Assembly (NCBI GenBank): GCA_030651305.1
Contig: JAUSCI010000081.1
Location: forward strand, 1-56,556
DNA length: 56,556 nt
Reading direction: 5' to 3'
Source of the DNA: Sulfuritalea sp.
GTDB taxonomy: Bacteria; Pseudomonadota; Gammaproteobacteria; Burkholderiales; Rhodocyclaceae
A program made the position numbers and the translations under genes. The notes under the pieces are model-generated. The model did not search any database. It was not told the DNA's origin and worked only from the letters and a program-made list of their open reading frames with translations. This document shows positions 4,225 to 53,752 of this stretch, one piece after another (within the stretch, counting starts at the first letter, position 1; every line of letters starts with the position of its first letter).

Positions 4225-5084
4225 CCTGCGTCGAGCACACGCAGCAATGAAGACGTGTCATCGCCCCCCCAGCCCTGGCTCATCAACGAGTTCAACTGCT
4301 GCGCCACGGCGCCTGACACCGGCAAAGGCGCCCCGATCCGGGTCGCCTCATCCATCAGCAGCGCGTAATCCTTGTGGTGCAATCTTGCTTCGACACCGGG
4401 ACGAAAATCCCTGATCGCCATGCGGCCGCCGAACACGTCCAGCACCCGTGAACCGGCCGAGCCGTGCAGCATTGCGGCGCGCACCTTGCTGAAGTCGATG
4501 CCGGCTGCGGCCGCCAGCCGCGCCGCCTCCGCCGTCGCCTCGATCGCCGCCACCATCACCATCTGGTTGCAGGCCTTGGCCACCTGCCCGGCGCCTGCCT
4601 CTCCCACGTGCACGATGGTCTTGCCCAGCACGGCGAAGATCGGCTGGAGGCGTGTCGCCAGCGCCGACTTTCCGCCCCACATGATCGCCAGCGCGGCACT
4701 TTGCGCGCCGCCACTGCCACCGGATACCGGCGCATCGACGAAATCAACACCGCTGGCGGCATGACGGGCCGCGATGCGGCGGGCGGCGGACGGCGCGATG
4801 GTGGAAAAATCGACATGGAGGCAGCCCGGCGCCAGGCCCGCCGCCAGGCCCTCGGTCCCGAAAGCCAGCCCCTCGACGTCGGCGCTGCCGGTAACATTGG
4901 TGCACACAATTTCGGCATGACGCGCGACTTGAGCGGGTGAGGCACGCCATTGCGCCCCTTGCGCGACCAGCGCGGCCGCCGCTTCCGGTCGTCGCGACCA
5001 GACCGACAATTCATGTCCGGCGTGCAGCAGGTGTTCCGCCATCGGGCGGCCCATGGCACCGAAACCGATGAAACCCAGTTGCAT
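4203..5084 (-). CDS. NAD(P)-dependent 3-hydroxyisobutyrate dehydrogenase-family oxidoreductase
   Basis: A 293-residue beta-hydroxyacid dehydrogenase. The N-terminal GFIGFGAMGRPMAEHL is the Rossmann nucleotide loop, FVDAPVSGGSGGA is the substrate-binding block, and GAGQVAKACNQ carries the catalytic lysine. It would reduce or oxidise a small 3-hydroxy acid such as 3-hydroxyisobutyrate or tartronate semialdehyde; the exact substrate is not evident. It is a tandem paralogue of the gene just upstream (gap of 4 bp), with the same length and block order. The segment GGKSALATRL is encoded by a copy of the 22-bp dispersed motif, in the place where the paralogue has GGTQAAFDQV. No length change results. 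Confidence 0.85.
   Translation of the reverse strand: MQLGFIGFGAMGRPMAEHLLHAGHELSVWSRRPEAAAALVAQGAQWRASPAQVARHAEIVCTNVTGSADVEGLAFGTEGLAAGLAPGCLHVDFSTIAPSAARRIAARHAASGVDFVDAPVSGGSGGAQSAALAIMWGGKSALATRLQPIFAVLGKTIVHVGEAGAGQVAKACNQMVMVAAIEATAEAARLAAAAGIDFSKVRAAMLHGSAGSRVLDVFGGRMAIRDFRPGVEARLHHKDYALLMDEATRIGAPLPVSGAVAQQLNSLMSQGWGGDDTSSLLRVLDAGCGMDPA
4651..4672 (-). repeat. Dispersed 22-bp motif, copy 1 (inside oxidoreductase gene)
   Basis: On the plus strand the core is CGTGTCGCCAGCGCCGACTT, one base different from the argJ copy. On the coding strand it encodes part of GGKSALATRL. Its position corresponds to an ordinary, length-conserved part of the protein family. Confidence 0.7.
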
Positions 5085-5088
5085 TAAG

Positions 5089-5964
5089 CTACTCCGGCGT
5101 GCTCATCTTTTCGAGCAGCATCAGCGCCGAGATCGAATCGTTCTCGCCCATGCCGCTGCCGACGATGGCGTTGAAGATCTGCGCCGTGGCCGCCGCCGAG
5201 GGCAGCATCAGACCCAGGCGATGCGCCTCTTCCATGACGATGCGCAAATCCTTCTGGTGCATCCAGGCCTTGAAACCGGGCTTGAAGTTGCGGTCGAGCA
5301 TGCGCTGGCCATGGTTTTCCAGGATTTTTGAATAAGCGAAACCGCCGAGCAGCGCCTCGCGCACCCTGGCCGGATCAACGCCGCTTTTCGCCGCGAAGTT
5401 GAAGGCCTCGGCCACGGCCAGCACGCCGACGCCGGTGAGAATCTGGTTGCAGGCCTTGGCCACCTGGCCGGCACCGGAGCCGCCGATCAGCGTCACCGAC
5501 TTGCCCAACTTTTCCAGCAGGGGCTTGACCTGGTCGAATGCAGCCTGCGTGCCGCCGACCATGACGGTCAGCGCGGCGTTGATGGCGCCGGTCTCGCCGC
5601 CCGACACGGGCGCATCGACGAACTCGATGCCCTTCTCCGCCAGGCGCTGGCCGATTACTCGCGCGGCATTGGGGTTGATGGTCGACATGTCGACCACGAT
5701 CAGGCCTTTGCGGCCGCCCGCGATGATGCCGTTCTCGCCCAGGCAAACGGCCTCCACGTCCGGCGCGTCGGCCACCATGGTGATGACCACCGCGGCGTGT
5801 TTCGCCACCTCGGCCGGGCTCGCATGGGTCTTTGCATTGACGCTCGCGAAAGGCTTCAGCGACTCCGGTCGCCGTGCCCACAGGTGCAGTTCGTGACCGG
5901 CCTTTTCCAGGTGCAGGGCCATCGGGCGGCCCATCAGGCCAAGACCTATGAATCCGACTTTCAT
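5089..5964 (-). CDS. 2-hydroxy-3-oxopropionate reductase / 3-hydroxyisobutyrate dehydrogenase family (GarR/GlxR-like)
   Basis: A 291-residue enzyme with the Rossmann loop GFIGLGLMGRPMALHL, the substrate block FVDAPVSGGETGA and the lysine block GAGQVAKACNQ. The family reduces tartronate semialdehyde to glycerate or oxidises 3-hydroxyisobutyrate. The resemblance to GarR/GlxR is good, but no glyoxylate carboligase gene is present to confirm the pathway. It is the first of two tandem minus-strand paralogues, 39 bp downstream of the DUF4202 gene. A good GGAGAC ribosome site precedes the ATG. Confidence 0.87.
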   Translation of the reverse strand: MKVGFIGLGLMGRPMALHLEKAGHELHLWARRPESLKPFASVNAKTHASPAEVAKHAAVVITMVADAPDVEAVCLGENGIIAGGRKGLIVVDMSTINPNAARVIGQRLAEKGIEFVDAPVSGGETGAINAALTVMVGGTQAAFDQVKPLLEKLGKSVTLIGGSGAGQVAKACNQILTGVGVLAVAEAFNFAAKSGVDPARVREALLGGFAYSKILENHGQRMLDRNFKPGFKAWMHQKDLRIVMEEAHRLGLMLPSAAATAQIFNAIVGSGMGENDSISALMLLEKMSTPE

Positions 5965-6003
5965 GATGTTGTCTCCTCGGGATTCTTCAATTCGTGCGCG
6001 CTG

Positions 6004-6600
6004 TCAGGGGGCAATCGCCTTGAGAATCAGCGGTACCAGAGGCTCCGGCAGTTTGAGGCCGCCACCGGTGGCAAACGCGTGGGCGTTATCCGACATTTTT
6101 CGCCATGTCTTGCGGATGATGTCCAGCCACTTTTCCTCGCTGTACTCTGCATGCTGGCCGGCGAAGCCGAGCATGTAGTGCTCGATGAAGACCAGATCCG
6201 TAACGTCTTCCATCATCTGCGTATCGGGGTTGACCTTGAGCCCGCGCTTGCCCACTGCGGCCTTGACCTTATCGATCATGGCGTCATCGTAGCCGGCCTG
6301 CTGCATCAATTCGCCGGCCGTCTCGGCGTGGAATTTGTAGAGCCCGGTGCGCCAGGCGAAATAGCCTTCCTTGGTCATCGGATAGCTGCTGCGCGGCACC
6401 GTCCAGCGCTTGATGTGCTGGGCGCGCACGGCCAGCCGGGCGACTTCGCTCGCGTCCGGCGCATAGCGGCCGATCATCTCGGTCATGCGTCGGGCATAGA
6501 GCAGCTCCTTCGGCTGCCCCTCGTCCTGATTGGGGTCCTCGGCATTGGCGGCGTCAAAAAGCGCGATGGCGCGCTCGTATCGCTCCTGATCATTACTCAT
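6004..6600 (-). CDS. DUF4202 domain-containing protein
   Basis: About 198 residues from the chosen start (MSNDQERYERAIALFD); an upstream ATG at 6615 would add five residues. The sequence matches the DUF4202 family as remembered. Seen are many conserved His and acidic residues: RAQHIKRW, FHAETAGELM, VFIEHYML and the C-terminal DNAHAFATGG. The spacing of His and Asp/Glu resembles HD-type metal-binding helices, but catalytic activity is not established and no function is assigned. No signal peptide or membrane segment is present. It is read divergently from the PAS-GGDEF gene; the roughly 280-bp space between the two starts holds both promoters. Confidence 0.75.
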   Translation of the reverse strand: MSNDQERYERAIALFDAANAEDPNQDEGQPKELLYARRMTEMIGRYAPDASEVARLAVRAQHIKRWTVPRSSYPMTKEGYFAWRTGLYKFHAETAGELMQQAGYDDAMIDKVKAAVGKRGLKVNPDTQMMEDVTDLVFIEHYMLGFAGQHAEYSEEKWLDIIRKTWRKMSDNAHAFATGGGLKLPEPLVPLILKAIAP

Positions 6601-6881
6601 GGTCTGGCTTTCCATAATCCAAAATAGTGCGAACTGCCGGTAGTGGGGCCCGCATTGCCGGCAACGTGGCCGACACCGCTATCTTAGCCGAGATAGGCGC
6701 GGTGGCTATCTGCACCGGAACAAGGCCGGCGAATGGAACGGCGCACGGACTCTGGAACAGTCGTTCGGGCAAAGGCGGCGGACACATTATTGGTGACATA
6801 ATCTCCCTGTCGACTCCAGCCGTTAGCCGAGACTCGCCCTGTTGCGCAGTGGGCTGGAAGGCTCTTCTCCGAAAGGCTGCC

Positions 6882-8309
6882 ATGGTCAACAGCGTTGCGC
6901 ACTCAACTGAACCGGTGGTCGGCAGCGCAACCGCCATTGCCTCGGAAATTCGAGCGCTGCGAGACTTTGCCGAGCTTTCGGCGGACTGGTTTTGGGAGCA
7001 GGACGCGGAATTTCGCTTCACCCGCTTCTTTGGCCTGGCGACGGAAAAACTGCGGCGCGCCGAAAGCGAATTTTTTGGCAAGCGGCGCTGGGACATGCCG
7101 ATTCGTGGCATCAGCGCCGAGCAGCTTGCGGCACATATAGCTACCTACGAGCGCCACGAGCCTTTCCGCAATTTCGACTACGAAGTGCCGGGTGAGGGCG
7201 GCATCCTCCAGTATTACTCGGTCAGCGGCACGCCGGTATTCAACGAGCAAGGCGTATTTGTCGGCTATCACGGTGTTGGCCGCAATATCACCGAGCTGCG
7301 GCTGGCCGAGCTGGCGATCAAGGAAAGCGAGCGGCAGTTATCGCAGATCGTCGATGGCAGTCCGATACCGACCTTTGTGATCGATGCCGAACATCGGGTC
7401 ACGCACTGGAATCGGGCTTGCGAACAACTGACCGGATTGAGCGCGAACGAGATGTTGGGTCAAAGCGATGTGTGGCGATCGTTTTACCCGGCAGCGCGGC
7501 CGGCCATGGCCGATCTGGTGGTAGCCGGAGCGATGGATGATGCGATTGCCGAGCACTACCAGAAATTCAGCCACTCGGCCCTGATTGCCGGAGCCGTAGA
7601 GGCCGAGGACTTCTTTCCGCAAATGGGCGGGGAAGGACGCTGGCTCCACTTTACGGCTGCACCGCTGAAAGACTCCGCGGGAAATCTCACCGGCGCCATC
7701 GAGACACTGCAGGACATTACCGCCCAGCGCAGGGCGCAGACCGCACTCGAACAGCTCGCCACGCGCGACGGCCTGACCGGAATCGCCAATCGCCGCACCT
7801 ATGACGAAAAACTCGGCAACGAATGGAAGCGCCAGCTGCGTGATTCGCGGACCTTGTCGCTGCTCATGATCGACGTCGATCACTTCAAACTCTTTAACGA
7901 CGCCTACGGCCATCAGGCGGGCGACAACTGTCTGCAGCAGATCGCCAGAGTGCTGGAGCAAGTCGTGTTCCGTCCGGGCGACCTGGTCGCCCGCTATGGC
8001 GGCGAAGAGTTTGTGGTGATCCTGACCGCGACCCATGCGCAAGGAGCAAGCATCGTCGCCCAGCGCATTCTTGATCGCATCGCCGAACTGGCCATGCCCC
8101 ACAGCGGCGGCGAAGGCGGTCGGGTGACGCTGAGCATCGGCGTCGCCACCTCGCTGCCGCAACCCGACTCGGAGCCGGAAAGCCTGGTCGCCGCTGCCGA
8201 CGCCGCGCTATACCGGGCCAAGCATGCCGGGCGCAATCGCTTCGTCCTCGACCAGGCGACAGAAGCTGCGCAGCAAGCCGGGACTGCCGCCACCGAAACG
8301 CGGCTATGA
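6882..8309 (+). CDS. PAS-PAS-GGDEF diguanylate cyclase
   Basis: 475 residues from the chosen ATG at 6882. The frame is open upstream to 6627, but those 85 codons show no domain and the PAS homology begins shortly after 6882. Two PAS domains follow: the first begins near [16 protein letters not shown] and ends at GRNITEL, the second runs from [15 protein letters not shown] to LQDITAQR. The GGDEF domain starts at [14 protein letters not shown] and carries an intact [12 protein letters not shown] active site, with RPGD five residues upstream as an RxxD inhibitory site. No EAL domain is present, so synthesis of cyclic di-GMP is the expected activity. It is soluble. Its 3' end overlaps the convergent argJ by 6 bp. 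Confidence 0.9.
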
Positions 8310-9542
8310 CCGGTAGTCGGCGTTGATCCTGACGTAGTCGTAGGAAAAATCGCAGGTCCAGACAGTGGCTTCAGCGGCACCGCGTCCGAGGTCGACGCGG
8401 ACCGTAATCTCCGCCGCCTGCATGATGCGCGAGCCATCCTCTTCGCGGTAGCCGGCGGCCCGCCCGCCGTGTTCGGAAACCAGCACTTCCTCGCCGCCAC
8501 TACCAAGCCAGACGCGCACACCGGCGGCATCCAGATCGGCGATGCCGGCGTAGCCGATGGCCGCCAGAATCCGGCCGAGATTCGGGTCCGACGCGAAAAA
8601 CGCCGTCTTCACCAGCGGCGAATGGCCGATGGCATAGGCCACCAGGCGGCATTCCGCCGCCGTGCCGCCAGCGCCGACTTTCACGGTGATGAACTTGGTC
8701 GCGCCCTCGCCGTCGCGCACGATGGCCTGCGCCAGTTCCTGCGCCACGCCGATCACCGCATCGCGCACCGCCGGCCAGTGGGGCGATGATTCGCTGTCGA
8801 TCATGCAACCCGCTGCGCCCGTCGCAATGACGAGGAAGGAATCGTTGGTCGACGTGTCACCGTCCACGGTGATGCAGTTGAAGGAAACGTCTGCGGCGTC
8901 CTTCGCCAGCTTCTGCAACATGGCCGGACTGAGGCCGGCGTCGGTGGCGACAAAGCCGAGCATGGTCGCCATGTTGGGCCGGATCATGCCGGCGCCCTTG
9001 CTGATGCCGGTGATGGTGATGGTCTTGCCATCCAGGCTGATCCGCCGCGAGGATGCCTTGGCAACGGTATCGGTGGTCATGATGGCGTGCGCGGCGGCAT
9101 GCCAGTGGTCTGGCGCGAGGTCGGCCTGCGCGGCGGGAAGGCCGGCGATCAGGCGATCCACCGGCAAATGTTCGAGGATCACGCCGGTCGAAAACGGCAG
9201 CACTTCATGCGCCTCGCAACCGAGCATCCGCGCCACCGCGTCGCAGGTGTCGCGCGCCGCCCGCATGCCCTGCTCGCCGGTGGCGGCGTTGGCAATGCCG
9301 GTATTGATCACCAGCGCACGAATTCCGCCGTCGCCGGCCAGATGCTCGCGGCAAACGGTGACGGGCGCCGCGCAACAGCGATTTTGCGTAAATACGCCGG
9401 CGGCATGGCTGCCGGGCGCGAACTCGATCAGCGTCAAGTCGCGCCGGTCCTTCTTGCGTATGCCCGCCTCCGCCGTGCCGAGACGAACTCCGGCAACGGG
9501 GAACAGGGCTTGAGGGGCGGGGGTGGCGTAGTTGACGGGCAT
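8304..9542 (-). CDS. argJ: Bifunctional glutamate N-acetyltransferase / amino-acid N-acetyltransferase ArgJ
   Basis: A 412-residue arginine-biosynthesis enzyme of the usual length. It transfers the acetyl group from N-acetylornithine to glutamate and may also use acetyl-CoA. The self-cleavage site is visible in the [16 protein letters not shown] stretch, where cleavage falls before the threonine of MATML. The conserved [12 protein letters not shown] block and the C-terminal [19 protein letters not shown] block are intact. The segment [11 protein letters not shown] is encoded by a dispersed-motif copy at 8661-8682, and the spacing around it is as expected for ArgJ. The gene is monocistronic on the minus strand, convergent with the cyclase gene. 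Confidence 0.96.
8661..8682 (-). repeat. Dispersed 22-bp motif, copy 2 (inside argJ)
   Basis: The plus strand reads CGTGCCGCCAGCGCCGACTT followed by TC. On the coding strand it encodes KVGAGGTA in ArgJ. It matches the consensus fully. Confidence 0.75.
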
Positions 9543-9620: not shown

Positions 9621-9642
9621 AAAGTCGGCGCTGGTGACACGG
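9621..9642 (+). repeat. Dispersed 22-bp motif, copy 3 (intergenic)
   Basis: Reads AAAGTCGGCGCTGGTGACAC, with two differences from the consensus. It lies between argJ and the inverted-repeat island, outside the island's left arm. Confidence 0.65.
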
Positions 9643-9688
9643 CGATCCGAGCCGCGGGAAACAGATGCGCTCCATTTTCCGTCGTTCC

Positions 9689-9748
9689 CGCGAAGGCGGG
9701 AATCCAGTAGTCATTGCGAGAATGCCGGGTCTCGCCCCGGCGGGCGAG
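9689..9748 (+). repeat. Left arm of a 60-bp inverted repeat
   Basis: Pairs with the complement of 12170-12229 at 58 of 60 positions by direct comparison; the two differences are in the CGCGAAGGCGGG part. The arm begins inside a GGGAATCC-type palindrome and ends CGGCGGGCGAG. Confidence 0.85.
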
Positions 9749-9958
9749 TTAGACCATGTGGAAAACATATTCGAAGCTGGTTCGTTTGAACTCTAGCCAC
9801 CGACTGGAACGTGCCCTGAGCGGCCGAGTCGTGCCTCACAATACGTGGCTCCGCTACTGCAACTTGTTGGGCATAAAGCACGGCAATAATTGTCCGCAGC
9901 ATCAACAGAGTGTAGGCTTCAAGTCTTTGTGCCTGCCGGCATAATGGGAAGGGAAAAC

Positions 9959-11839
9959 ATGTATTTGAAAAGCCTGATATTGGAAAATGTTGGCCCAATC
10001 GCCCAACTCTCGATCGAACCCTCATTTGACGGCGAATTGCCTAAACCGATAATTCTAGTTGGAGCCAACGGAAGCGGAAAGTCGATAGCCCTCTCATTCA
10101 TCGTCAATTTGCTCCTGCATATTCAACAGCAGGTTTTCGAGAACGCCGAGGTCGAAAAAGGAAAGGTCTTCAAGCTACGTAGCCCTATTTATATCGGTCC
10201 AGCGGCAAAGTACTACTATGGCTCCGTTACGTTCTCAGACGGCATAGGGCTAGAAGAATGGAGTCTATCGGCCTCGAAAAGTGAGCTTGTTGCAAGCGGA
10301 ATTTCCCCGCCAAGGCCAAGCTGGAACAATATCGCCGACAACAGTACCGATGGGCAATTTGCTATCGGCGATGTTACGGACCCCCAAAAGCTTAGGCCGC
10401 TATATAGTCAATATGCGGCTCTGTACTTTCCCGCTAATCGATTTGAAGAACCCGGCTGGCTCAATTCAGATAGCCTTTCTTTTGCTCCGAAGATCTCTTA
10501 CAAACTGAAATTGACTGAGATTACGCAACGGCAAATCGTTAGCTCCAATATTTTTCGAAACTTAATTTCCTGGATATATGACCTTATCATTGATTCTCAC
10601 CTATTCGAAACGGCAGTTATCTCGGTAACATTTCCCGATGGCCAAGTCACTCCGTGCTTGCTACCGTTGCCGAACCGGCCTAATCGTGTTCTTAAAGGAG
10701 AAATAGACAAGGTCTTGCAGATGATATTTGCCGGCAAATTCCAAGGCACGATTGGGATTACCGTCTTGCCAAAGCGAGGAAGAAGCGTTGGTCTCGTTGA
10801 GACTCGCCCGGACGGGACGACGCGAACAATAGTCCACAATTTATTTAGCCTTTCCTCCGGGGAAAGTCTGCTTCTCGCGTTGTTTGCATCGATCATTCGC
10901 GACTTTGAGCTGAGCGGCAGTCCATGTGGCTGTCTCGCGGACATAAAGGGAATCGTAATCGTCGACGAAGTGGACCTTCACTTGCACATAGACTTACAAC
11001 GAAACGTGCTTCCTCGCCTAATTAGGGCGTTTCCCAAAATCCAATTCATCGTCACGACCCATTCCCCTCTCTTTCTTCTAGGAATGGAAGAAGAGTTTGG
11101 CTCAGAGGGCTACGACATTATTAGTCTGCCTAGTGGGGAACGAATTCTTGCCGAAGAGTTTAGCGAATTTCGCAGCGCTTATGACGTGTACAAGAACACC
11201 CAACATGATAAGCAAGCCACCAAACAGATGTTGGACAAGCTCAATGAGCCTTGCCTCATCACCGAAGGAACCAGCGATAAAGTGCTATTGACTGTCGCCT
11301 GGCAAAAACTCTATGGGACGGCTCCGTGCTTTCTCAACATCAAGTCGTCAACGGATGTCATCGGAACTGGCGGAAATGCCCAACACGTACAAAGTACACT
11401 CCGATATGTTTCGACGTTGGCTACCCACCCGATCATCGGATTGTTCGACAATGACAATGAAGGAAATGCCCAGTTTAGTGGGCTGAAGCCACCGTTATTT
11501 AGCAAGGTATCAGCTGATCATAGGCAGCACGACAAAGTAAGCGGACTTCTGTTACCTGCCCCTGAATCAAGAAAGAAATACGTCAACGCCACGAAGGGTT
11601 CCTACTGCTATTTGCAAATCGAGCATTACTTTTCAGATGCGATATTGGAAGCGCACAACAAAAAGGGCCTAGAAGTTATTGAGGGCACTGGCGTATATGA
11701 AATTCAGGGCGACAAAGCCGCTTTTGCCAACACTGTTACGAACTTCGACGCTAAGGAGTTCGACAACTTTGAACTTCTGTTTTGCCGTCTCGCCGACATT
11801 CTCGGCGTTGCCCCTCCAACAAAAGAAGTCGGCGTCTGA
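9959..11839 (+). CDS. AAA ATPase with C-terminal TOPRIM-like domain (OLD family nuclease, putative defence protein)
   Basis: 626 residues from the ATG at 9959, chosen because GGGAAGGG sits just before it. The N-terminal ABC-like ATPase has Walker A GANGSGKS at about residues 37-44, a signature SSGESLLLALFA, Walker B IVIVDEVDLHLH and a switch TTHSP. This is the SMC/OLD layout with a long insertion between the halves. The last 200 residues begin CLITEGTSDKVLL and contain LFDNDNEG, the Glu and DxD motifs of a TOPRIM nuclease. OLD proteins are ATP-dependent nucleases, several of which give phage resistance. No GajB-type UvrD helicase, PtuB HNH protein or reverse transcriptase is adjacent, so a stand-alone class 1 OLD is likeliest. 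Base composition differs from its neighbours, suggesting transfer. Confidence 0.8.
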   Translation: MYLKSLILENVGPIAQLSIEPSFDGELPKPIILVGANGSGKSIALSFIVNLLLHIQQQVFENAEVEKGKVFKLRSPIYIGPAAKYYYGSVTFSDGIGLEEWSLSASKSELVASGISPPRPSWNNIADNSTDGQFAIGDVTDPQKLRPLYSQYAALYFPANRFEEPGWLNSDSLSFAPKISYKLKLTEITQRQIVSSNIFRNLISWIYDLIIDSHLFETAVISVTFPDGQVTPCLLPLPNRPNRVLKGEIDKVLQMIFAGKFQGTIGITVLPKRGRSVGLVETRPDGTTRTIVHNLFSLSSGESLLLALFASIIRDFELSGSPCGCLADIKGIVIVDEVDLHLHIDLQRNVLPRLIRAFPKIQFIVTTHSPLFLLGMEEEFGSEGYDIISLPSGERILAEEFSEFRSAYDVYKNTQHDKQATKQMLDKLNEPCLITEGTSDKVLLTVAWQKLYGTAPCFLNIKSSTDVIGTGGNAQHVQSTLRYVSTLATHPIIGLFDNDNEGNAQFSGLKPPLFSKVSADHRQHDKVSGLLLPAPESRKKYVNATKGSYCYLQIEHYFSDAILEAHNKKGLEVIEGTGVYEIQGDKAAFANTVTNFDAKEFDNFELLFCRLADILGVAPPTKEVGV

Positions 11840-12169
11840 GCGATAGGCTTTTCGCATTACTTCCGAACCCCGACTGGCTGCTCCTGGCCGATTGCGGAAG
11901 TACATCCAGCAAGGGCCTGCTGCGTTGCGGCCGCTCAAGGGAGTCAAACTGGGTTCATTTCCACACGGCTTACTACGCGCGACGGTTCTTATTCCCCTCT
12001 GTCCCGCCGAGTGGAGGAAGGTTCGCCGGGGGAAGTCCGGTCGCGTTGTCTGAGCGCAGCGAGTTTAGCGACCGGCCTGGCGGACCTTGCTCCGCGAGGG
12101 TAGCCCGCAGGGCCGGGGCGGCGGGGTGCGCTTCTTTGGGTACTTTCTTGTCGCATCACAAGAAAGTAC

Positions 12170-12229
12170 CTCGCCCGCCGGGGCGAGACCCGGCATTCTC
12201 GCAATGACTACTGGATTCCCGTTTTCGCG
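12170..12229 (-). repeat. Right arm of the 60-bp inverted repeat
   Basis: Complement of 9689-9748 with two mismatches. It begins CTCGCCCGCCGGGGCGAG and ends in GGATTCCCG followed by TTTTCGCG. Confidence 0.85.
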
Positions 12230-12247
12230 AAAATGACGCAATACAAC

Positions 12248-12270
12248 AGTCGGCGTTGGTGGTACGGCGC
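12248..12270 (+). repeat. Dispersed 22-bp motif, variant copy 4 (at the end of vapC)
   Basis: Reads AGTCGGCGTTGGTGGTACGG and continues GCGCCTCAG. It differs from the copy at 46105 by two bases over 28. The minus-strand vapC stop codon lies immediately next to it, exactly as the stop of the ORF ending at 46131 lies next to that copy. Confidence 0.65.
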
Positions 12271-18159: not shown

Positions 18160-21100
18160 ATGACCATCCGCGTTGCGCTCAACCACCAGACCCGTTACAG
18201 CTTCGACCGGGCGGTCAGCCTCTGGCCGCATGAGGTCCGCCTGCGGCCCGCCGCGCATAGCCGCACGCCCATACTCAGCTATTCGCTCAAGGTGGAACCC
18301 GCCGGGCACTTCCTCAACTGGCAGCAGGACCCGTTCGGCAACTGGGTCGCGCGCCTGGTATTCCCCGAGAAGGCCGAGTCGCTGACGATTACCGTCGATC
18401 TGGTGGCCGACATGACGGTGATCAACCCGTTCGACTTCTTCATGGATGAGTCTGCCGAGAACTATCCCTTCGAGTATCCGGAGGGCTTGAAACGCGAACT
18501 GGGCCCGTATCTCGAAGCCGATCCGGCCACGCCCCTGCTGGCCGGCTGGATCGCGCGGACACGCAAGGAACTGCTCGGCAAGAAGATGCGCACCATCGAC
18601 ATGCTGGTCGGCATCAACCAGCGCGTGCAGGGTGACGTCGGCTACATCGTGCGCCTCGAAGCCGGCGTGCAGACGCCGGAAGAAACCCTGGAACTCAAGC
18701 GCGGCTCCTGCCGCGATTCGGCCTGGCTGCTGGTGCAAGCGCTGCGCCACCTCGGCCTCGCGGCGCGTTTCGCTTCGGGCTACCTGATCCAGTTGAAGGC
18801 CGACGTCAAGGCGCTCGACGGCCCTTCCGGCACCGACCACGACTTCACCGACCTGCATGCCTGGACCGAGGTGTACATCCCTGGCGCGGGCTGGATCGGC
18901 CTCGATCCGACCTCGGGCCTGCTCGCCGGCGAAGGCCACATTCCGCTGGCCTGCACGGCGATGCCTTCCTCCGCCGCACCGGTCATCGGCGCCACCGAAA
19001 AGTGCGAGTCGCACTTCGATTTCGCCATGCATGTCACGCGCATCCACGAAGACCCGCGCGTCACCCAACCCTACACCGAGGCGCAATGGCAGGCGGTGCT
19101 CGACCTCGGTCACCAGGTCGATGCCGAACTGGTCAAGCATGACGTGCGCCTGACCATGGGCGGCGAGCCGACCTTCGTTTCGATCGACGACATGGAAGGT
19201 CCGGAATGGAATTTCACCGCCTTGTCCGAGAAGAAGCGCGAACTCGCGGGCGACTTGCTGAACCGTCTGCAAGGGCATTTTTCTCCTGGAGCGATGCTGC
19301 ATTTCGGCCAGGGCAAGTGGTATCCCGGCGAACCGCTGCCGCGCTGGGCGCTGGGCTGCTACTGGCGCAGCGACGGCAAGCCGCTGTGGCAGGACGCGAA
19401 ACTCCTGGTCACCACCGACGGCGCCGGCACGCGCAAGGCCCAGGACGCGCTGCACTTCATCCGCCGCCTGACGCGCGAACTCGCCCTCGATCCCGGCTGG
19501 GTGATCGCCGCCTACGAAGATGTCACGCGCATCATCGACGAGGAACAACGCTGGCCGGAGAATTTCGACCCGCTCCAGGCCGACCTGAAAAAACCCGACG
19601 AACGGCTGCGCGTGGCGAAGCTGCTGGAACGCGGCCTGGGCGAGGCCGCAGGCTACGTATTGCCGCTGAAGGCCCTGCCGCCGACTCCTCGGGCAAACAA
19701 GCGCCGTCCCGCCGGCGCCGACTTTCAATCCCGCTTCCGCTCCAGCCCCTGGCCCTTGCGCCGCGAACACCTCTACCTGATCCCCGGCGATTCGCCGCTG
19801 GGCCTGCGCCTGCCGCTGGCTTCGCTGCCCTGGGTGGCGCCCGGCGACAAGGAAGAGGAACACACGCGCGACCCGTTTGCCGCACAGGAGCCGCTGGCCG
19901 ACCCCGCCGAAGCGCAGGCGGGCGCGCCGCGGCTAACCCCCTCTCCCCCAACCCCTCTCCCACCAGGGGAGAGGGGAGCGTTTATGCCGACCACGCCCAA
20001 GCCCGGCTACGATCCGCGCGAGATCGTGCACACCGCGCTGTGCGCCGAAGTGCGCGACGGCGTGCTCTGCATCTTCCTGCCACCGGTGCCTCTGCTGGAA
20101 GATTTCGTCACGCTGCTCACCGCGATCGAAGCCACCGCCGCCGACCTCAAGCTGCCCGTGCGCCTTGAAGGCTATACGCCGCCCAGCGACCCGCGCCTCA
20201 AGGAATTCCGCATCACGCCCGATCCCGGCGTGATCGAAGTCAACATCCATCCGGCGAGCAGCTGGGCGCAGCTGGTGGCGAACACCCAGATTCTCTACGA
20301 GGAAGCCCGCCTGACGCGCCTGGGCACCGAGAAGTTCATGCTCGACGGCCGCCACACCGGCACCGGCGGCGGCAACCACATCACGCTCGGCGCCGCCAGT
20401 CCGGCCGACTCGCCCTGCCTGCGCCGCCCCGACCTGCTGATGAGCCTGATCGCCTACTGGCAGCATCATCCGGCGCTGTCCTACCTGTTCTCCGGCATGT
20501 TCATCGGCCCCACCAGCCAGGCGCCGCGCGTCGACGAGGCGCGCCACGAGAGCCTCTACGAACTCGAAATCGCCTTCCAGCAGATGGCGCAACGCCTCAA
20601 GCCGGGCGAGGAAAGCCTGCAGCCGTGGCTGGTCGATCGCCTGCTGCGCAACCTCCTGGTCGATCTGTCCGGCAACACGCACCGTGCCGAGTTCTGCATC
20701 GACAAGCTCTATTCGCCCGACAGCGCCACCGGGCGCCTCGGCCTGGTCGAATTCCGCGGCTTCGAGATGCCGCCGCACGCGCAGATGTCGCTGCTGCAGA
20801 TGCTGCTGCTGCGCGCGCTGGTCGCCCGCTTCTGGCAGACGCCCTACAGCGGCAGCGGCCTGATGCGCTGGGGCACGGGGCTGCACGACCGCTACATGCT
20901 GCCGCACTTCGTCGCCCAGGACATGCAGGACGTGGTGCTCGACCTGCAGCGCGCCGGCTATGCCTTCGAGTTCGACTGGTTCGCGCCCTTCCTCGAATTC
21001 CGCTTTCCGCGCTTTGGCACGGTGGTCTATCACGGCATCGAAATCGAACTGCGCCAGGCGATAGAGCCCTGGCATGTACTGGGCGAAGAAGTCGCCGCTG

Positions 21101-21603
21101 GCGGCACGGCGCGCTACGTCGATTCCTCGGTCGAGCGGATGCAGGTCAAGGTGCGCCACATGCACGACAACCGCCACATCCTCACCTGCAACGGCCGTCC
21201 GCTGCCGCTGACCGGCACCGGCACGCGCGACGAATACGTCGCCGGCGTGCGCTACCGCGCCTGGAGCCCGCCTTCGGGACTGCACCCGAGCATCGGCGTG
21301 CAGGCGCCGCTGGTGTTCGACCTGGTCGATAACTGGAGCGGGCGCTCGATCGGCGGCTGCACCTACCACGTCGCCCATCCCGGCGGGCGCAGCTACGACA
21401 CCTTCCCGGTCAATGCCAACGAAGCCGAATCGCGCCGCGTCGCGCGCTTCTGGAACCACGGCCACACGCCGGGCCCGATGCACGTGCGGCGCGAAGGGCG
21501 CAACCCGGATTACCCGCTGACGCTGGACCTGCGCCGCGCCCCGGAAGCCTGGATGGAAGGCGCGCCGTCGATCGCCACCGAGCAGGAGCAGGCGCAGCAG
21601 TAG
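18160..21603 (+). CDS. Transglutaminase-like / DUF2126 fusion protein
   Basis: 1147 residues. N-terminal bacterial transglutaminase beta domain (about 1-100, starting TIRVALNHQTRYSFDRAV); transglutaminase core at about 150-260 with the catalytic triad region KRGSCRDSAWLLVQALR (Cys), DLHAWTEVYIPGAGW (His) and IGLDPTSG (Asp). From about residue 285 DUF2126 follows (LTMGGEPTFVS, GGGNHITLGAASP). The cluster context suggests an amide-forming or amide-cleaving pathway with the ATP-grasp and Anbu proteins. Two oddities fall in one linker: the segment RRPAGADFQ is a dispersed-motif copy (19705-19726), and LTPSPPTPLPPGERG is a hairpin repeat read in frame (19935-19979). No signal peptide. Confidence 0.92.
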   Translation: MTIRVALNHQTRYSFDRAVSLWPHEVRLRPAAHSRTPILSYSLKVEPAGHFLNWQQDPFGNWVARLVFPEKAESLTITVDLVADMTVINPFDFFMDESAENYPFEYPEGLKRELGPYLEADPATPLLAGWIARTRKELLGKKMRTIDMLVGINQRVQGDVGYIVRLEAGVQTPEETLELKRGSCRDSAWLLVQALRHLGLAARFASGYLIQLKADVKALDGPSGTDHDFTDLHAWTEVYIPGAGWIGLDPTSGLLAGEGHIPLACTAMPSSAAPVIGATEKCESHFDFAMHVTRIHEDPRVTQPYTEAQWQAVLDLGHQVDAELVKHDVRLTMGGEPTFVSIDDMEGPEWNFTALSEKKRELAGDLLNRLQGHFSPGAMLHFGQGKWYPGEPLPRWALGCYWRSDGKPLWQDAKLLVTTDGAGTRKAQDALHFIRRLTRELALDPGWVIAAYEDVTRIIDEEQRWPENFDPLQADLKKPDERLRVAKLLERGLGEAAGYVLPLKALPPTPRANKRRPAGADFQSRFRSSPWPLRREHLYLIPGDSPLGLRLPLASLPWVAPGDKEEEHTRDPFAAQEPLADPAEAQAGAPRLTPSPPTPLPPGERGAFMPTTPKPGYDPREIVHTALCAEVRDGVLCIFLPPVPLLEDFVTLLTAIEATAADLKLPVRLEGYTPPSDPRLKEFRITPDPGVIEVNIHPASSWAQLVANTQILYEEARLTRLGTEKFMLDGRHTGTGGGNHITLGAASPADSPCLRRPDLLMSLIAYWQHHPALSYLFSGMFIGPTSQAPRVDEARHESLYELEIAFQQMAQRLKPGEESLQPWLVDRLLRNLLVDLSGNTHRAEFCIDKLYSPDSATGRLGLVEFRGFEMPPHAQMSLLQMLLLRALVARFWQTPYSGSGLMRWGTGLHDRYMLPHFVAQDMQDVVLDLQRAGYAFEFDWFAPFLEFRFPRFGTVVYHGIEIELRQAIEPWHVLGEEVAAGGTARYVDSSVERMQVKVRHMHDNRHILTCNGRPLPLTGTGTRDEYVAGVRYRAWSPPSGLHPSIGVQAPLVFDLVDNWSGRSIGGCTYHVAHPGGRSYDTFPVNANEAESRRVARFWNHGHTPGPMHVRREGRNPDYPLTLDLRRAPEAWMEGAPSIATEQEQAQQ
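19705..19726 (-). repeat. Dispersed 22-bp motif, copy 5 (inside DUF2126 gene)
   Basis: Plus strand reads CGTCCCGCCGGCGCCGACTT then TC. It is translated as RRPAGADF, the same peptide produced by the copy in modC. Confidence 0.75.
19935..19979. repeat. In-frame hairpin repeat (CCCCTCTCC...GGAGAGGGG type)
   Basis: The arms CCCCTCTCCC (19939-19948) or CCCCTCTCCC (19953-19962, slightly shifted) face GGGGAGAGGGG (19968-19978) as an inverted repeat. This is a widespread intergenic repeat type in GC-rich proteobacteria (from memory). Here it sits inside an open frame and is translated as a proline-rich linker. Confidence 0.6.
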
Positions 21604-21613
21604 CGACGGACGG

Positions 21614-21635
21614 CGTCCCGCCAGCGCCGACTTTC
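21614..21635 (-). repeat. Dispersed 22-bp motif, copy 6 (intergenic)
   Basis: Plus strand CGTCCCGCCAGCGCCGACTT then TC, 10 bp after the stop codon of the transglutaminase/DUF2126 gene. Confidence 0.7.
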
Positions 21636-22683: not shown

Positions 22684-22705
22684 AGAGTCGGCGCTAGCGG
22701 CACGG
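22684..22705 (+). repeat. Dispersed 22-bp motif, copy 7 (intergenic)
   Basis: Reads AGAGTCGGCGCTAGCGGCAC then GG, about 80 bp before the otsA start. Two differences from the consensus. Confidence 0.65.
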
Positions 22706-22783
22706 TGACCCACTGCGGTTTCGGCAGGGATAGCTTGGACCGGCGTGGCACAATGAGCCTCGCCAGACGAAAAGGACCAAGAC

Positions 22784-33988: not shown

Positions 33989-34770
33989 CGCTTCCTCCGC
34001 TTGTAGTGCTTGATGTCGCGGAAGCTCCTGATCTCGCCGCCGCCCATGCCCAGATAAAACTCGCGCACGTCGGGATCGGCGGCCAGCTTTTCGGCGGGCC
34101 CGTCGATCACCACCTTGCCGGTTTCCATGATGTAGCCGGTATGCGCCACCGCCAGCGCCACCGAGGCGTTCTGCTCCACCAGCAGCATGGAGACGCCCTG
34201 TTCCGCATTGATGCGCGCAATGATGCCGAAAATGTTCTCCACCAGAATCGGCGAGAGCCCCAGCGACGGTTCGTCGAGCAGCATCAGCACCGGCTGTGCA
34301 ATCAGGGCGCGGCCGATCGCCAGCATCTGCTGCTCGCCGCCGGAAAGATAGCCGGCCAGGCCGCGGCGGCGTTCATGCAGGCGCGGGAAATACTCGTAGA
34401 CCAGGTCAAAGTCGGCGCTGGCGGCACGGCGACCGGTCAGCGCATAGGTCGCTGCGGTCAGGTTTTCCTCGACGGTCAGATCCTCGAAAACGTGCCGGCC
34501 TTCCATCACATGGAACAGGCCGGCACGCACCAGTTGGTGCGGTCGCATGTCGCCGGTGTCGCGGCCGGCAAAGGCCACGCTGCCCCGGGTCATTTCGCCA
34601 TCCTCTAGCGCGAGCAGGTTGGAGACGGCCTTGAGCGTGGTCGTCTTGCCCGCGCCGTTGCTGCCGAGCAGGGCCACGATCTGCCCCTTCGGCACCGACA
34701 GCGACAGGCCGCGCAGGACCTGCACGGCCTTGTTGTAGATGACCTCGATGTTGTTGATTTCGAGGATCAT
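33976..34770 (-). CDS. livF: LIV-type ABC transporter ATP-binding protein LivF
   Basis: 264 residues from the ATG with GGAGAG upstream (24 bp inside the longest open frame). Walker A LLGSNGAGKTT, signature YLSGGEQQMLAIGRA, Walker B LMLLDEPSLGL, and switch VEQNASVALAVAH. The segment [11 protein letters not shown] is encoded by a dispersed-motif copy. It is separated from the binding-protein gene upstream by a 190-bp stretch of hairpins, and overlaps the acyl-CoA ligase gene downstream. Confidence 0.93.
   Translation of the reverse strand: MILEINNIEVIYNKAVQVLRGLSLSVPKGQIVALLGSNGAGKTTTLKAVSNLLALEDGEMTRGSVAFAGRDTGDMRPHQLVRAGLFHVMEGRHVFEDLTVEENLTAATYALTGRRAASADFDLVYEYFPRLHERRRGLAGYLSGGEQQMLAIGRALIAQPVLMLLDEPSLGLSPILVENIFGIIARINAEQGVSMLLVEQNASVALAVAHTGYIMETGKVVIDGPAEKLAADPDVREFYLGMGGGEIRSFRDIKHYKRRKRWLS
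34408..34429 (+). repeat. Dispersed 22-bp motif, copy 8 (inside livF)
   Basis: Plus strand AAAGTCGGCGCTGGCGGCAC then GG, a full consensus match. On the coding strand of livF it is read as RRAASADF, a third way of translating the motif. Confidence 0.75.
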
Positions 34771-43932: not shown

Positions 43933-44619
43933 ATGCTGAGTTTACCCAACCTCGCGTCCGACTTCGCCGCGATCTGGCTTACCTTCAAGCTGGCCACGGT
44001 CGTCACCCTGATCCTGCTGCTGATCGGCACGCCGATCGCCTGGTGGCTGGCGCGCACCCGCTCCTGGTGGAAAGGCCCGGTCGGCGCGATCGTCGCCCTG
44101 CCCATCGTGCTGCCGCCGACGGTGCTCGGCTTCTACCTGCTGCTAGTGATGGGGCCGCAGGGCGCGGTCGGGCAATTCACCGAGTGGGCCGGCATTGGCC
44201 TCTTGCCCTTCACCTTCTGGGGCCTCGTGGTGGCCTCGGTGTTCTACTCCATGCCCTTCGTCGTGCAGCCGATCCAGAATGCCTTCGAAGCCATCGGCGA
44301 GCGGCCGCTGGAAGCGGCGGCCACGCTACGGGCGTCGCCGCTCGATGCTTTTTTCAGCGTCGCCGTGCCGCTGGCGAAGCCCGGTTTCATCACCGCCGCA
44401 ATCCTCGGTTTCGCCCACACCGTCGGCGAGTTTGGCGTGGTGCTGATGATCGGCGGCAACATCCCGGAAAAGACCCGTGTCGTCTCGGTGCTGATCTACG
44501 ACCACGTCGAGGCGCTCGAATACACCCAGGCGCACTGGCTGGCCGGCGGCATGTTGATTTTCTCCTTCTTCGTGCTGCTGGCGCTCTACTCGCTGAATCC
44601 TAGCGGAAAGCGGAAATGA
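43933..44619 (+). CDS. modB: Molybdate ABC transporter permease
   Basis: 228 residues, about five membrane segments ([40 protein letters not shown]). The EAA loop is [20 protein letters not shown], followed by [20 protein letters not shown] typical of ModB. It overlaps modC by 4 bp. Confidence 0.94.
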
Positions 44620-45686
44620 GTATCGAGGCCCGCTTCAGGCTCGACTACCCCGGCTTCACGCTCGACGTGGATTTGTCCCTGCCCGCGACGGGCGTCACCG
44701 CGCTGTTCGGTCATTCCGGTTCGGGCAAGACCACGCTCTTGCGCGCCATCGCCGGGCTGGAGCGCGTACCCGGCGGGCGGCTGGTATTCGATGGCGCGGT
44801 CTGGCAGGACGATGCCACCTGGCTGCCGACGCACCGGCGCCCGCTGGGTTATGTGTTTCAGGAAGCGAGCCTGTTCCCGCATCTTTCCGTGCGCGGCAAT
44901 CTCGACTATGGCATGAAGCGAACCTGGCGCCGTCCCGCCGGCGCCGACTTTCAGACGATCGTCGATCTGCTCGGCATCGGCGCCCTGCTCGACCGCAAGC
45001 CCGACCGCCTCTCCGGCGGCGAGCGCCAGCGCGTGGCCATCGCCCGCGCCCTGCTGACGCAACCGCGTCTGCTGCTGATGGACGAACCGCTCGCCGCGCT
45101 CGATCTCGCGCGCAAGGAGGAAATCCTCCCTTATCTCGAACAACTCGACGAAGTCCTGCACATCCCCATGCTCTATGTGAGCCACGCGCCCGACGAAGTG
45201 GCACGCCTGGCCGATCACATTGTCGTGCTCGATGGCGGCCGCGCCCTTGCCGCCGGGCCGCTCACGGAAACCCTGGCGCGGCTGGACCTGCCGATCCGCC
45301 TCGGCGAGGATGCCGGCGCGGTGTTCGCCGCGACGGTGGCCGAACGCGATGCCGAGTGGCACCTGGCGCGCGTCGAATTCGACGGCGGCGAACTGTGGGT
45401 GCGCGACAGCGGCGTCGCCGTAGGTCGCCGCGTGCGCGTGCGCATCCTGGCGCGCGACGTGTCGATCGCCAACAGTCGCCACGACGACGTCAGCATCATG
45501 AACCTGCTGCCGGCCACCGTCATCGCCCATGCCGGCGAGGACCATCCGTCGGCGGTGCTGGTGCAACTGAGCGTCGGCGCGACTAAACTGCTGGCGCGTC
45601 TGACGCGGCGCTCCGCGCAGCGCCTCGACCTCGCTCCCGGCCGCGAGGTATGGGTGCAAATCAAGGCCGTGGCGCTGATTGGGTAG
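44616..45686 (+). CDS. modC: Molybdate ABC transporter ATP-binding protein
   Basis: 356 residues. Walker [16 protein letters not shown]-loop [14 protein letters not shown], signature [16 protein letters not shown], Walker [13 protein letters not shown], switch [14 protein letters not shown]; a C-terminal TOBE (mop) domain begins near residue 290 ([14 protein letters not shown]) and may sense molybdate. The segment [10 protein letters not shown] is a dispersed-motif copy, giving the same peptide as in the DUF2126 protein. Confidence 0.95.
44931..44952 (-). repeat. Dispersed 22-bp motif, copy 9 (inside modC)
   Basis: Plus strand CGTCCCGCCGGCGCCGACTT then TC, identical to the copy at 19705 over the core. 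Translated as RRPAGADF. Confidence 0.75.
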
Positions 45687-45697: not shown

Positions 45698-46165
45698 ATG
45701 CATATAGAATTCGCTGGCACCAGGGATATCGAGACCATGGCCGACCTGCTCCACGAACTATTCACCCTCGAATCGGACTTCAAGCCGGAGCGGGCGAAAC
45801 AGCTCGCCGCGCTGAAATGGATCCTCGACCACCCGGCCCACGGTCGTCTCTTCGTCGCCCGCGAAGGCGATCAGGTGGTGGGCATGGCCAATGCGCTGAT
45901 CAGCATCAGCACTGCCGAGGGCGGCCCGGTGCTGATCCTCGAAGACGTGATCCTCGCCGCCAGCCATCGCGGCAACGGTCATGGCAGGCACCTGGTCGAG
46001 CATGTGCTGGCGTGGGCGCACAGCCAGAACATCAGCCGCGTCACGCTGCTCGCCGACAAGGACAATGCCGCCGCGCTGGTCTTCTACGAACGGCTCGGCT
46101 TTGAAGAGTCGGCGATGGTGGTACGGCGCTTCAGAACCCGTAAGGCCGATACAGCCAGGCCTTGA
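45698..46165 (+). CDS. GNAT family N-acetyltransferase
   Basis: 155 residues from the ATG preceded by GTAGGGGG. The acetyl-CoA loop ILAASHRGNGHGRHLVEHVL and the late ALVFYERLGF block are classic GNAT. Acceptor unknown. It is 11 bp after modC, so co-transcribed. The last dozen codons run through a dispersed-motif copy and across the end of a convergent reading frame (35-bp overlap). Confidence 0.88.
   Translation: MHIEFAGTRDIETMADLLHELFTLESDFKPERAKQLAALKWILDHPAHGRLFVAREGDQVVGMANALISISTAEGGPVLILEDVILAASHRGNGHGRHLVEHVLAWAHSQNISRVTLLADKDNAAALVFYERLGFEESAMVVRRFRTRKADTARP
46105..46128 (+). repeat. Dispersed 22-bp motif, variant copy 10
   Basis: Reads AGAGTCGGCGATGGTGGTAC then GGCG, within the GNAT 3' end. 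Over 28 bases it differs from the copy at 12248 by two bases, and in both places the CTCAG or TTCAG edge supplies or borders the stop codon of a minus-strand gene. Confidence 0.65.
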
Positions 46166-49084: not shown

Positions 49085-49088
<4 letters not shown>

Positions 49089-49756
49089 GATCTGAAGATT
49101 CTCGTATATTGGGTTTCGTGCTTGCAGCAGGCGATGGCGAAGGCCGGCGCGAAGTTGGAATAGTCAGCGTCGACAAGCGTCAGTGCGCGATCGGCAACGG
49201 CGGGCAGACGGCGGCCGATTTCCTGCAGCAGGCGCTGACCGGCGGCCTGTCCCAGGGGCACGGCCTTCAGCGCGGCCATGGTCTGGTTTTCCGCCCAGCT
49301 CCAGAGCCAGGCGGTGAGCGCTTCCTGCGCTGGAATCTGCCAGGCCGCCGCCGCACAGGTCCAGACATAGGCAAGAGTCGGCCCTGACGAGACGGCGAGT
49401 TCATCGAGCAGGGGCGGCGGGAAATCACCCAGTTCATTGAGCAGGCGCTTCATCGAGTAGCCCATCTGCAGAGTCTCGGCGCGAAGCTCTGCTGTTTCAC
49501 GCGTAGCCAGATATTCCGCGTCCAGTTCCAGTAGCGCATCGGCGTTGCCAGCCGTCCATGCGGCCAGCATGCGCAGCAGCAGGGGCGCCTCATAGCGGCC
49601 GAGATTCCATGCGAGCTGATCGCCGATCCACGTCAAGGCGCCGGCCTCGTCCGTCACCGCACCTGCTTCGACCGCCCATTCGAGCCCCTGAGAATAAGTG
49701 TAGGCGCCCACCGGCAGCGCAGGACTGGCAAGCTGGAGAAGGCGGGCGAGGCTCAA
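49085..49756 (-). CDS. ureF: Urease accessory protein UreF
   Basis: 223 residues, all-helical. N-terminal [20 protein letters not shown] then [16 protein letters not shown] matches UreF, as does the late [14 protein letters not shown] block. UreF bridges the urease-UreD complex and UreG. Overlaps ureE upstream and ureG downstream by 4 bp each. Confidence 0.95.
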
Positions 49757-50264: not shown

Positions 50265-51965
<1,701 letters not shown>

Positions 51966-52584: not shown

Positions 52585-52593
52585 CGCGGCTCC

Positions 52594-52896
52594 CTAAACG
52601 ATCGGATTGTGCACAGTGACGAGCTTCGTTCCATCGGGAAACGTCGCCTCGACCTGGATCTCCGGAATCATCTCCGGTACGCCTTCCATCACCTCGTCGC
52701 GACGAAGCAAAGTCGCGCCGTAGCTCATCAACTCAGCCACGGACTGCCCGTCGCGCGCGCCTTCGAGAATGCCGGCACTGATGAAGGCCACCGCCTCCGG
52801 GTAGTTGAGCTTGAGCCCGCGCCCCTTGCGGCGCTCGGCGAGCAGTGCGGCGGTGAAGATCAGCAGCTTGTCCTTTTCTCTTGGGGTAAGTTCCAT
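52594..52896 (-). CDS. ureA: Urease gamma subunit UreA
   Basis: 100 residues starting [40 protein letters not shown] and [20 protein letters not shown] are diagnostic. Structural subunit of the separate-subunit (bacterial) urease. Ten bp after ureD, with a strong AAGGAGG ribosome site. Confidence 0.97.
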
Positions 52897-52906
52897 ACAG
52901 CCTCCT

Positions 52907-53752
52907 TCAGGTATTCCAGATGCGTGGCGTGATCGCCTCGTGCCCGCTCATCGCGGGGCGCAGTGCCACCCACAGTTGCAGCAGCCACTCGCGCGCGGCC
53001 TCCGCCGAATGGCCGAGATAGCGGCCGACCAGCAGCTGCGGCAAGAGGCTGACGCCCCACCGGGCGCAGGCTTCGCGCGATCCAGCGGCACGGCAGGCCG
53101 CCAGCGTTTCCGGTGTCAGCTCGGCGCCCGCCGCCAGCACCGTGCTGCAGACGCTGAAGCCGGCCAGCCCGATCGGCGAATCGAGCAGCGCCGAGCCGCC
53201 ATCGATGCACCCGCGCTCGCGCCAGATCAACCTGCCCTCGGCGCGAATATCGGTGGCCAAGCGCAGGCTGCCGCGCATGAAAGTTTCGCCGCTGGCGCGG
53301 CGGCCGAAGCAGATCGTTTCCACGCCCGTAAAACAAGCGCCCTGATCCAGTTCGACCGTCGTCCGCATGGTGGCCTGGGCACCGGAAAACACGATGCTCT
53401 CCTGCGGCAACCATTCCACCGTGCCGCCAGCGCCGACTTTTACATGCACCTGCTGCGACGATTGCGCTCCGTTGGATCGATACCATTTGCCGGCACCCGG
53501 TGTGGTCAGCAGCGCATGAGACGCCGCATCGGCCTCGATGCGGATGTCGAGCTGGTCGCCACCGGCAATGCCGGCGGGCGGGTGCAGCACGATGGCATGA
53601 CACACCTCCGTCCCTTCCGGATACAGCGCCTTCTGCACGCGCAACGGGCCGCGATGCTCGCGCCGGGCGAGGATCGTCGAGTCACCGCGGCGCTCGAAGC
53701 CGAGCGCGAGCGAAGCTTGCCAGGGGGGCGCAATGGGTTCGGTGACCTGCAT
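52907..53752 (-). CDS. ureD: Urease accessory protein UreD
   Basis: 281 residues from the ATG at 53752 ([20 protein letters not shown]); earlier codons overlap urtE and are shadow. Family blocks: [40 protein letters not shown] and [14 protein letters not shown]. The segment [11 protein letters not shown] contains a dispersed-motif copy at normal family spacing. UreD (UreH) is the scaffold binding apo-urease for nickel insertion. Confidence 0.94.
53421..53442 (-). repeat. Dispersed 22-bp motif, copy 11 (inside ureD)
   Basis: Plus strand CGTGCCGCCAGCGCCGACTT then TT. On the coding strand it encodes KVGAGGTV, almost the same peptide as in ArgJ. Confidence 0.75.

Follow-up and report, generated by a model that had tools for sequence, protein, structure and literature searches.

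The window analysed here, the whole 56,556-nucleotide contig JAUSCI010000081.1 of Sulfuritalea sp. (assembly GCA_030651305.1; Rhodocyclaceae in GTDB, with Sulfuritalea assigned to Sterolibacteriaceae in NCBI taxonomy), carries both between and inside unrelated genes a dispersed DNA word whose consensus is the 25-mer ARAGTCGGCGCTGGCGRNACGGCGA. At up to 4 mismatches the window holds 13 sites. The perfect 25-mer is at 34408..34432 on the plus strand, inside an ABC-transporter ATPase gene (33976-34770, minus) that is LivF/UrtE-like, under family cut-offs. Two sites with a single mismatch are found at argJ (8304-9542, minus), one inside the gene and read KVGAGGT (8657..8681, minus), the other intergenic and adjoining it (9621..9645, plus). 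Two mismatches are seen inside a DUF2126/transglutaminase gene (19701..19725, minus, read RRPAGADF; gene 18160-21603, plus), between genes 6 nt past the end of that same gene (21610..21634, minus), in a further intergenic position (22684..22708, plus), and inside an ABC ATPase/TOBE gene (44927..44951, minus; gene 44616-45686, plus), ureF (49374..49398, plus; gene 49085-49711, minus) and ureD (53416..53440, minus; gene 52907-53752, minus). Sites with 3 mismatches of 25 lie in a 3-hydroxyisobutyrate-dehydrogenase-type oxidoreductase gene (4647..4671, minus, read GKSALATR; gene 4203-5084, minus), in a GNAT acetyltransferase gene (46105..46129, plus, read ESAMVVRR; gene 45698-46165, plus) and, as a weak word, at a second place in the DUF2126/transglutaminase gene (21088..21112, plus), while an intergenic site with 4 mismatches (12246..12270, plus) stands 4 bp beyond an inverted-repeat arm at 12167-12241. 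All eleven copies of the original prediction are present, with starts 0-2 bases from those given there, and it was right that five point one way (plus) and six the other (minus) and that they are read in different frames; the weak site at 21088 and the ureF site were missing from it.

The length of about 22 bp proposed at that stage has to be revised. Sites aligned from 456 kb, that is the window and 400 kb of the same genome, give a motif of 25-26 bp, R-ARAGTCGGCGCTGGCGRNACGGCGA, which has sharp edges and almost no signal outside them and holds ∼31 bits over 25 positions in this genome and 33 in the complete relative G002. In our sample of the own genome sites at 0, 1, 2, 3, 4 and 5 mismatches number 8, 17, 29, 23, 18 and 6, with none in the reversed control. 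Allowing up to 3 mismatches, we count 548 sites of the 25-mer in the whole genome, a density of about 1 per 7 kb, and none for the reversed control; a 20-mer version has 468 matches (reversed control 1). In the window alone the 20-mer matches 10 times when 3 mismatches are allowed, versus 0.06 in dinucleotide shuffles.

Genic copies are read as few peptides, and matches at 5 mismatches survive synonymous shuffling, so one might think of a protein-level motif or of a chance product of codon usage. We give this explanation next to no credence, because a third of the copies are intergenic, four frames are used and synonymous shuffling strips nearly all matches at 0-2 mismatches, which refutes it. 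In 772 genes called from the own and G002 samples by a codon-usage script rather than a standard program, 12, 20 and 32 sites have 0, 1 and 2 mismatches; none of five codon-preserving shuffles had a site with fewer than 2 mismatches, and each had at most 1 with exactly 2. At 3, 4 and 5 mismatches 30, 16 and 8 real sites compare with 2-7, 7-11 and 17-20 in the shuffles, so the peptides encoded there account in part for weak genic matches. A selected word had been expected to exceed a codon-preserving background and to recur through the genome and its relatives: sites at 0-2 mismatches are far above the shuffles, and not only the own genome but also other genera are rich in the word.

Placement of the sites

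The 176 sites found at up to 5 mismatches in the own and G002 samples comprise 118 genic ones, 56 intergenic ones and 2 on gene edges. With the last two set aside, the intergenic share far exceeds the 12.3% of bases that lie between genes (p 5e-12). Convergent gene pairs host 14 of the 54 intergenic sites that are flanked by genes on either side, against an expectation of 6.3 (p 0.003), and 24 of the 46 intergenic sites with a neighbouring gene 3' end are no more than 25 nt from that end. Among these sites are two perfect inverted pairs of the word, which belong to G002, are flanked by convergent genes and have folding energies of –57.4 and –53.5 kcal/mol. Inside genes four frames are used (45, 30, 20 and 20 sites) and two are avoided (2 and 1), and the difference between 67 sense and 51 antisense sites is not significant.

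In the own genome the sites are spaced more evenly than random ones (coefficient of variation 0.745 versus 0.97, p 0.0015) and only 7% of gaps are below 1 kb versus 20% at random, a likeness to the uptake signal sequence (USS) of Haemophilus, which is evenly spaced. The five 5-kb windows with less than 56% GC contain no site. On the G002 chromosome, sampled by evenly spaced stretches that make up 10% of it, 19 of 20 stretches contain sites, and when the halves are divided by GC skew, orientations are 16/19 and 17/17 (p 0.81), so there is no replichore polarity. The order of matches had suggested a strong polarity in G002, which the evenly spaced stretches do not show and which we take as an artefact.

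Even spacing in the own genome, the presence of sites in nearly all G002 stretches and the conservation of the word in all but one of 31 genus genomes are what would be expected of a nucleoid or chromosome-organising site that serves as the target of a non-palindromic DNA-binding protein. Like Chi, KOPS (FtsK-orienting polar sequences) and matS, the word is dispersed, short and chromosomal. Chi, KOPS, matS and similar words are, however, shorter, strand-polarised or confined to a domain, whereas the word shows no polarity. Its carriage by phages and by some defence- or mobile-type genes of other families, its dialects and its near-loss in one genome without collapse of that genome (all described below) also argue against such a site, which we regard as improbable. 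The mapping of orientation against chromosome halves, called for by the original prediction, has thus weakened the nucleoid or recombination signal offered there, while the uptake-type selected word offered beside it is now the best-supported reading.

Two features of the window should be mentioned here. At 9677-12241 an AAA ATPase gene of the AAA_21 kind (9890-11839), in lower-G+C sequence, lies between 75-nt inverted repeats that are 91% complementary, and one word stands outside each arm, at 31 and 4 bp; the ATPase is possibly defence-type cargo. A large gene at 1621-4224 contains short direct repeats at 3376, 3751 and 4126, with a period of exactly 375 bp.

Gain and near-loss of copies

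How copies arise was followed in a single region, up to 20 kb surrounding argJ, for which 17 more genus genomes and three outgroups were used; the pairwise comparisons of genomes within the genus refer to this region as well. Candidatus Accumulibacter, considered at first as the source of the DNA, was rejected, as argJ of Ca. Accumulibacter meliphilus is at 69%, no closer than in other genera. At the argJ site three word-free species of the genus and two outgroups have IAVEGGKSVE-type residues, while species with the word have different residues over an equal length. The original prediction had claimed a normal protein length around the word for argJ, ureD and the oxidoreductase; this stands for the argJ and dehydrogenase sites, where length equals that in word-free species. 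Among the pairwise comparisons, made on alignments longer than 300 bp and not independent as sites are counted in several genome pairs, the word is kept in 453 and not kept (5 or more mismatches) in 370. Of these 370, 289 are ungapped or of net-zero length and 2 are short by 20-31 bases, as insertion predicts. Alignments longer than 1000 bp show that homologous 25-mers are near all-or-none: they show 1-5 or at least 8 mismatches, and 6-7 mismatches occur in 11 of 789 comparisons. Flank divergence in the same alignments is slightly higher than average at word-free homologues and slightly lower at shared words. A similar close-or-far pattern of mismatches at gains of the DNA uptake sequence (DUS) is taken, in part of PMC2397512, as arrival by recombination.

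These comparisons bear on the idea of a functionless, selfish short repeat that is copied by transposition or gene conversion. The many copies, a patchy distribution over genera and the sporadic occurrence in other families would suit such a repeat. Yet nothing is shared in the flanks beyond ∼26 bp, word-free homologues are mostly length-neutral and almost never insertion-like (with the non-independence just mentioned), genic copies preserve reading frames, and inverted pairs form exact terminator-like hairpins. A selfish repeat is therefore very improbable. Spread by gene conversion, the alternative named by the original prediction, loses ground because flanks are not shared and because, in most gains, the word takes the place of a resident stretch of equal length.

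One genome of the genus, G016, has nearly lost the word. It is nested among word-rich species with a support of 0.99 in a 7-kb alignment and of 0.75 with argJ alone, outgroups covering the argJ part only. In 304 kb of it the best matches are two sites at 2 mismatches, and 14 sites with 2-5 mismatches (control none) look like relics. The ComEC frame of G016 is open, with 808 codons. This genome can serve as a natural control in the hunt for the reader of the word.

Spread among genomes, dialects and phages

Within the genus, 30 of 31 genomes have 135-628 copies of the 20-mer and G016 has 36; the counts of G021 and G025, 135 and 174, are low for the genus. Thirty genomes outside it (6 from its family, 24 from its order) contain 0-6 copies, like reversed controls. 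The idea of a genus-specific word had nevertheless to be rejected when a scan of the family (199 genomes, 68 genera) revealed further word-rich genera. More than 100 copies of the 25-mer are present in 21 genomes of six genera, and in each of these all sampled members are word-rich: 6 of 6 in the own genus, 1 of 1 in both g32 and g62, 5 of 5 in g43, and 4 of 4 in both g70 and g88, the 15 genomes of the five other genera having 166-726 copies. In the rest of the scan eight genomes have 8-54 copies and the others 0-6, with 0-1 in reversed controls. Outside the family, a degenerate pattern applied to 399 genomes of the order gives no more than 3 copies in any genome.

Other genera of the family use variants of the word. 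Iterative motif refinement led in G145 (g69) to AAAAGTCGACGCTGG.GATACGG, with 25 sites in 108 kb, and in G213 (g90) to GAAAGTCAGCCGYGGCGRCACGCCGA, with 34 sites in 120 kb; the reversed control has 1 site in either case, and each dialect comes from one genome. By the main word these genomes count 54 (G145) and 12 (G213). When fixed patterns are compared at up to 4 mismatches, the own dialect finds more sites than the main word in g69 (17 versus 10) and in g90 (23 versus 4), with controls at 0. The word of G119 (g43) ends in ACGGCA, as judged from 40 kb of one genome. In G016 refinement ended in a pattern without meaning (285 matches, control 49), and for G123, G291 and G227 (20 kb each) it yielded too few sites; these rows were not used. 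Further dialects may exist, because most other genera were tested with the main word only.

Sporadic copies in otherwise word-poor genomes were considered separately, with 20 surrounding stretches, 17 of them from outside the family. The 20 genes tested in or near these words include 7 of defence or mobile type (helicases, DUF1156, Eco57I, HicA, a primase), 2 of efflux (HlyD), 4 others and 7 unmatched ones. Many sporadic copies probably represent DNA transferred from word-bearing donors. At four such loci, L444, L447 and L456 from other families and L461 from the same family, words lie in or beside DUF1156/SNF2 helicase, Eco57I and ResIII-type genes, and there they are possibly markers of transfer from word-bearing donors.

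Phages carry the word as well. At least 120 stretches in IMG/VR, some of which share a contig, contain an exact 22-nt version, while the reversed pattern gives none. We took 48 of these loci, mostly on longer contigs or with several words, and obtained 47 whole records (1.41 Mb) with 128 sites; one site per record being discounted, the density is 0.057 per kb versus 0.141 in the host, or ∼40%. Genic phage sites fall in two of the four frames used by the host in 98 of 106 cases, a count that includes the sites by which loci were picked. Records with at least 3 sites have all of them in one orientation in 10 of 23 cases, 3.7 being expected, and some of these phages look related. Of eight loci examined six (L300, L359, L379, L287, L388, L314) have phage genes, namely tail, polymerase and primase, terminase and head, Mu-type transposase, integrase, or primase; L282 has only an HNH nuclease, and L378 has no match among the proteins tested. 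The contig of a lambda J-like tail gene (L300:883-2240) has five copies of the word, four of them at a 316-bp period. No pilin relative was found on the viral contigs. Dialect words of g90 and g69 occur there 0 times and once, and cultured phages and plasmids give E-values of 0.1 or worse among the matches listed (20 of 226 and 20 of 254 records).

Some of this would be explained if the word were a self-marker that is read within the cell: DNA bearing it would escape a nuclease, recombination or defence complex, or be repaired by way of one, much as at Chi sites but with a 25-bp word that lacks polarity. Phages carry the word in their own genes and in frames that the host tolerates, as protection inside the host predicts; a Chi-like octamer, GCTGGCGG, can in our own reading be seen within the word, and ComEA is missing from our searches of 31 genomes. 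The octamer is, however, not conserved, for its last base is G at no more than 51 of 89 own sites, and the word lacks strand polarity, whereas Chi is polarised. Placement past stop codons and hairpin pairs are typical of uptake words. Finally, phage carriage is expected of an uptake word to the same degree, because phages of Pasteurellaceae accumulate USS, the large and likely lytic ones being USS-poor, according to parts of PMC6776037. We consider a self-marker of this kind unlikely.

Candidate uptake machinery and probable meaning of the word

The word is probably a self-recognition signal of the DNA-uptake-sequence kind, to judge from its abundance and shape, its placement, its mostly length-neutral gain, the dialects, the near-loss in G016 and carriage by phages. 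Excerpts of a 2025 paper (PMC12616744) name neisserial DUS and Pasteurellaceae USS as the only two known families of uptake words. With DUS of Neisseriaceae, which is read by the minor pilin ComP, the word has in common hundreds or more of dispersed copies, intergenic enrichment, inverted pairs that resemble terminators, genus dialects, location in permissive segments and gains too unlike the homologous sequence for point mutation, as far as parts of PMC3630211 and PMC2397512 describe them. DUS differs in having 10-12 bp, not 25, and one copy per 0.4-1.1 kb (in part of PMC7371117) instead of one per ∼7 kb; here, moreover, inverted pairs are few, ComEA and a matching receptor were not found, and the family is another one. 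USS of Pasteurellaceae shares with the word dialects and accumulation in phages (PMC6776037, in part) and a preferred reading frame (PMC2346458, in part). Its core AAGTGCGGT and the word both begin with AAGT, which may be coincidence; this core has 9 bp, and the sequences are otherwise unlike. Most sequence-level features of DUS and USS are found here, and the word appears to work as uptake sequences do, although we would not call it proven.

Several observations weigh against this reading. Known uptake words have 9-12 nt, and a word of ∼31 bits is much longer. No inverted pair was seen in the own sample, and evenness of spacing in G002 is not significant (p 0.06). Genic sites show no bias to gene ends, with 23 of 118 in the outer 20% (Kolmogorov–Smirnov p 0.75), while such a bias is reported for Pasteurellaceae in part of PMC2346458. 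ComEC is present in 30 of 31 genomes of the genus, in one of them cut by a contig end, and is of little discrimination, being common also in word-free genera and in E. coli. Ordinary transformation is disfavoured above all by the failure of our searches to find ComEA: no stand-alone ComEA scores above the TIGR00426 cut-off in any of the 31 genus genomes, some of which are incomplete, and the same search is positive in 12 of 61 genomes overall. TIGR00426 matches below the cut-off are mostly in frames that we take, from their length, to be Tex- and RuvA-sized. PF12836 has no match in G000, G002 and G010, and in eight other word-bearing genomes of the genus it finds a frame of ∼800-940 codons and at most a weak second match. 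Among these 12 genus genomes short frames with matches above cut-off, of 181, 213 and 314 codons, are found only in the nearly word-free G016, which is the opposite of what a ComEA-dependent word predicts. The G016 matches to this helix-hairpin-helix family are on C104, C111 and C80.

Pilin-type proteins are present in 11 of 11 genomes searched. Pilins of the ComP_DUS family were considered as a receptor marker and rejected, as they occur alike in word-rich and word-free genera (55 of 61 genomes; 30 of 31 in the genus and 25 of 30 outside). The copies of the own genome and of G002 align over only 71 residues with 39% identity and are too divergent for one shared receptor, which is again unfavourable to an uptake word. 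The GRxR motif of FimT-type pilins was likewise set aside: in the form G[RK]x[RK] it occurs in 1 of 10 pilins checked, a pilin of G016. No candidate reader was found by a genome-wide search, which covered ComP_DUS pilins and no other candidate, and this too counts against an uptake word. Very short, well-conserved pilins of ∼56-59 aa are present in the four genus genomes examined (L255:961-1128, with homologues in L261, L268 and L273).

If the word is nevertheless an uptake signal, a protein that recognises the 25-mer would act on incoming DNA, with type IV pili presumably taking part, and cells would favour outside DNA that bears the word, i.e. DNA of kin. Word-bearing fragments would then enter and recombine more often, and by such biased recombination word alleles would spread, limited to places tolerated by protein and operon function. 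Spread of this kind would leave copies just behind stop codons, in segments where the protein tolerates them and in those frames that are permitted. The word would travel within the gene pool and reach resident phages too, and its dialect would shift when the reader changes.

In the open-access literature we found nothing that pairs Accumulibacter with an uptake sequence or Sulfuritalea with natural transformation. Searches there with the word strings matched, by title, only plant studies and one enzyme study, and none of the matches listed for Rhodocyclaceae together with uptake terms mentions Rhodocyclaceae.

The hosts of the word are largely uncultured, freshwater-type betaproteobacteria and their phages. 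We give an even chance to the broader proposal that betaproteobacteria of the Rhodocyclaceae type have a third, separately evolved and family-wide uptake system, with at least four dialects and an unknown receptor, which works without ComEA and shapes genomes as well as phages. If true, the drive-versus-benefit question for uptake words would become testable by comparison, as there would be a third case, with dialects, a word twice as long and a nested species in which it is all but lost. The word would also be a tool for assigning phages and transferred genes to their hosts, and it would point to an unknown DNA receptor.

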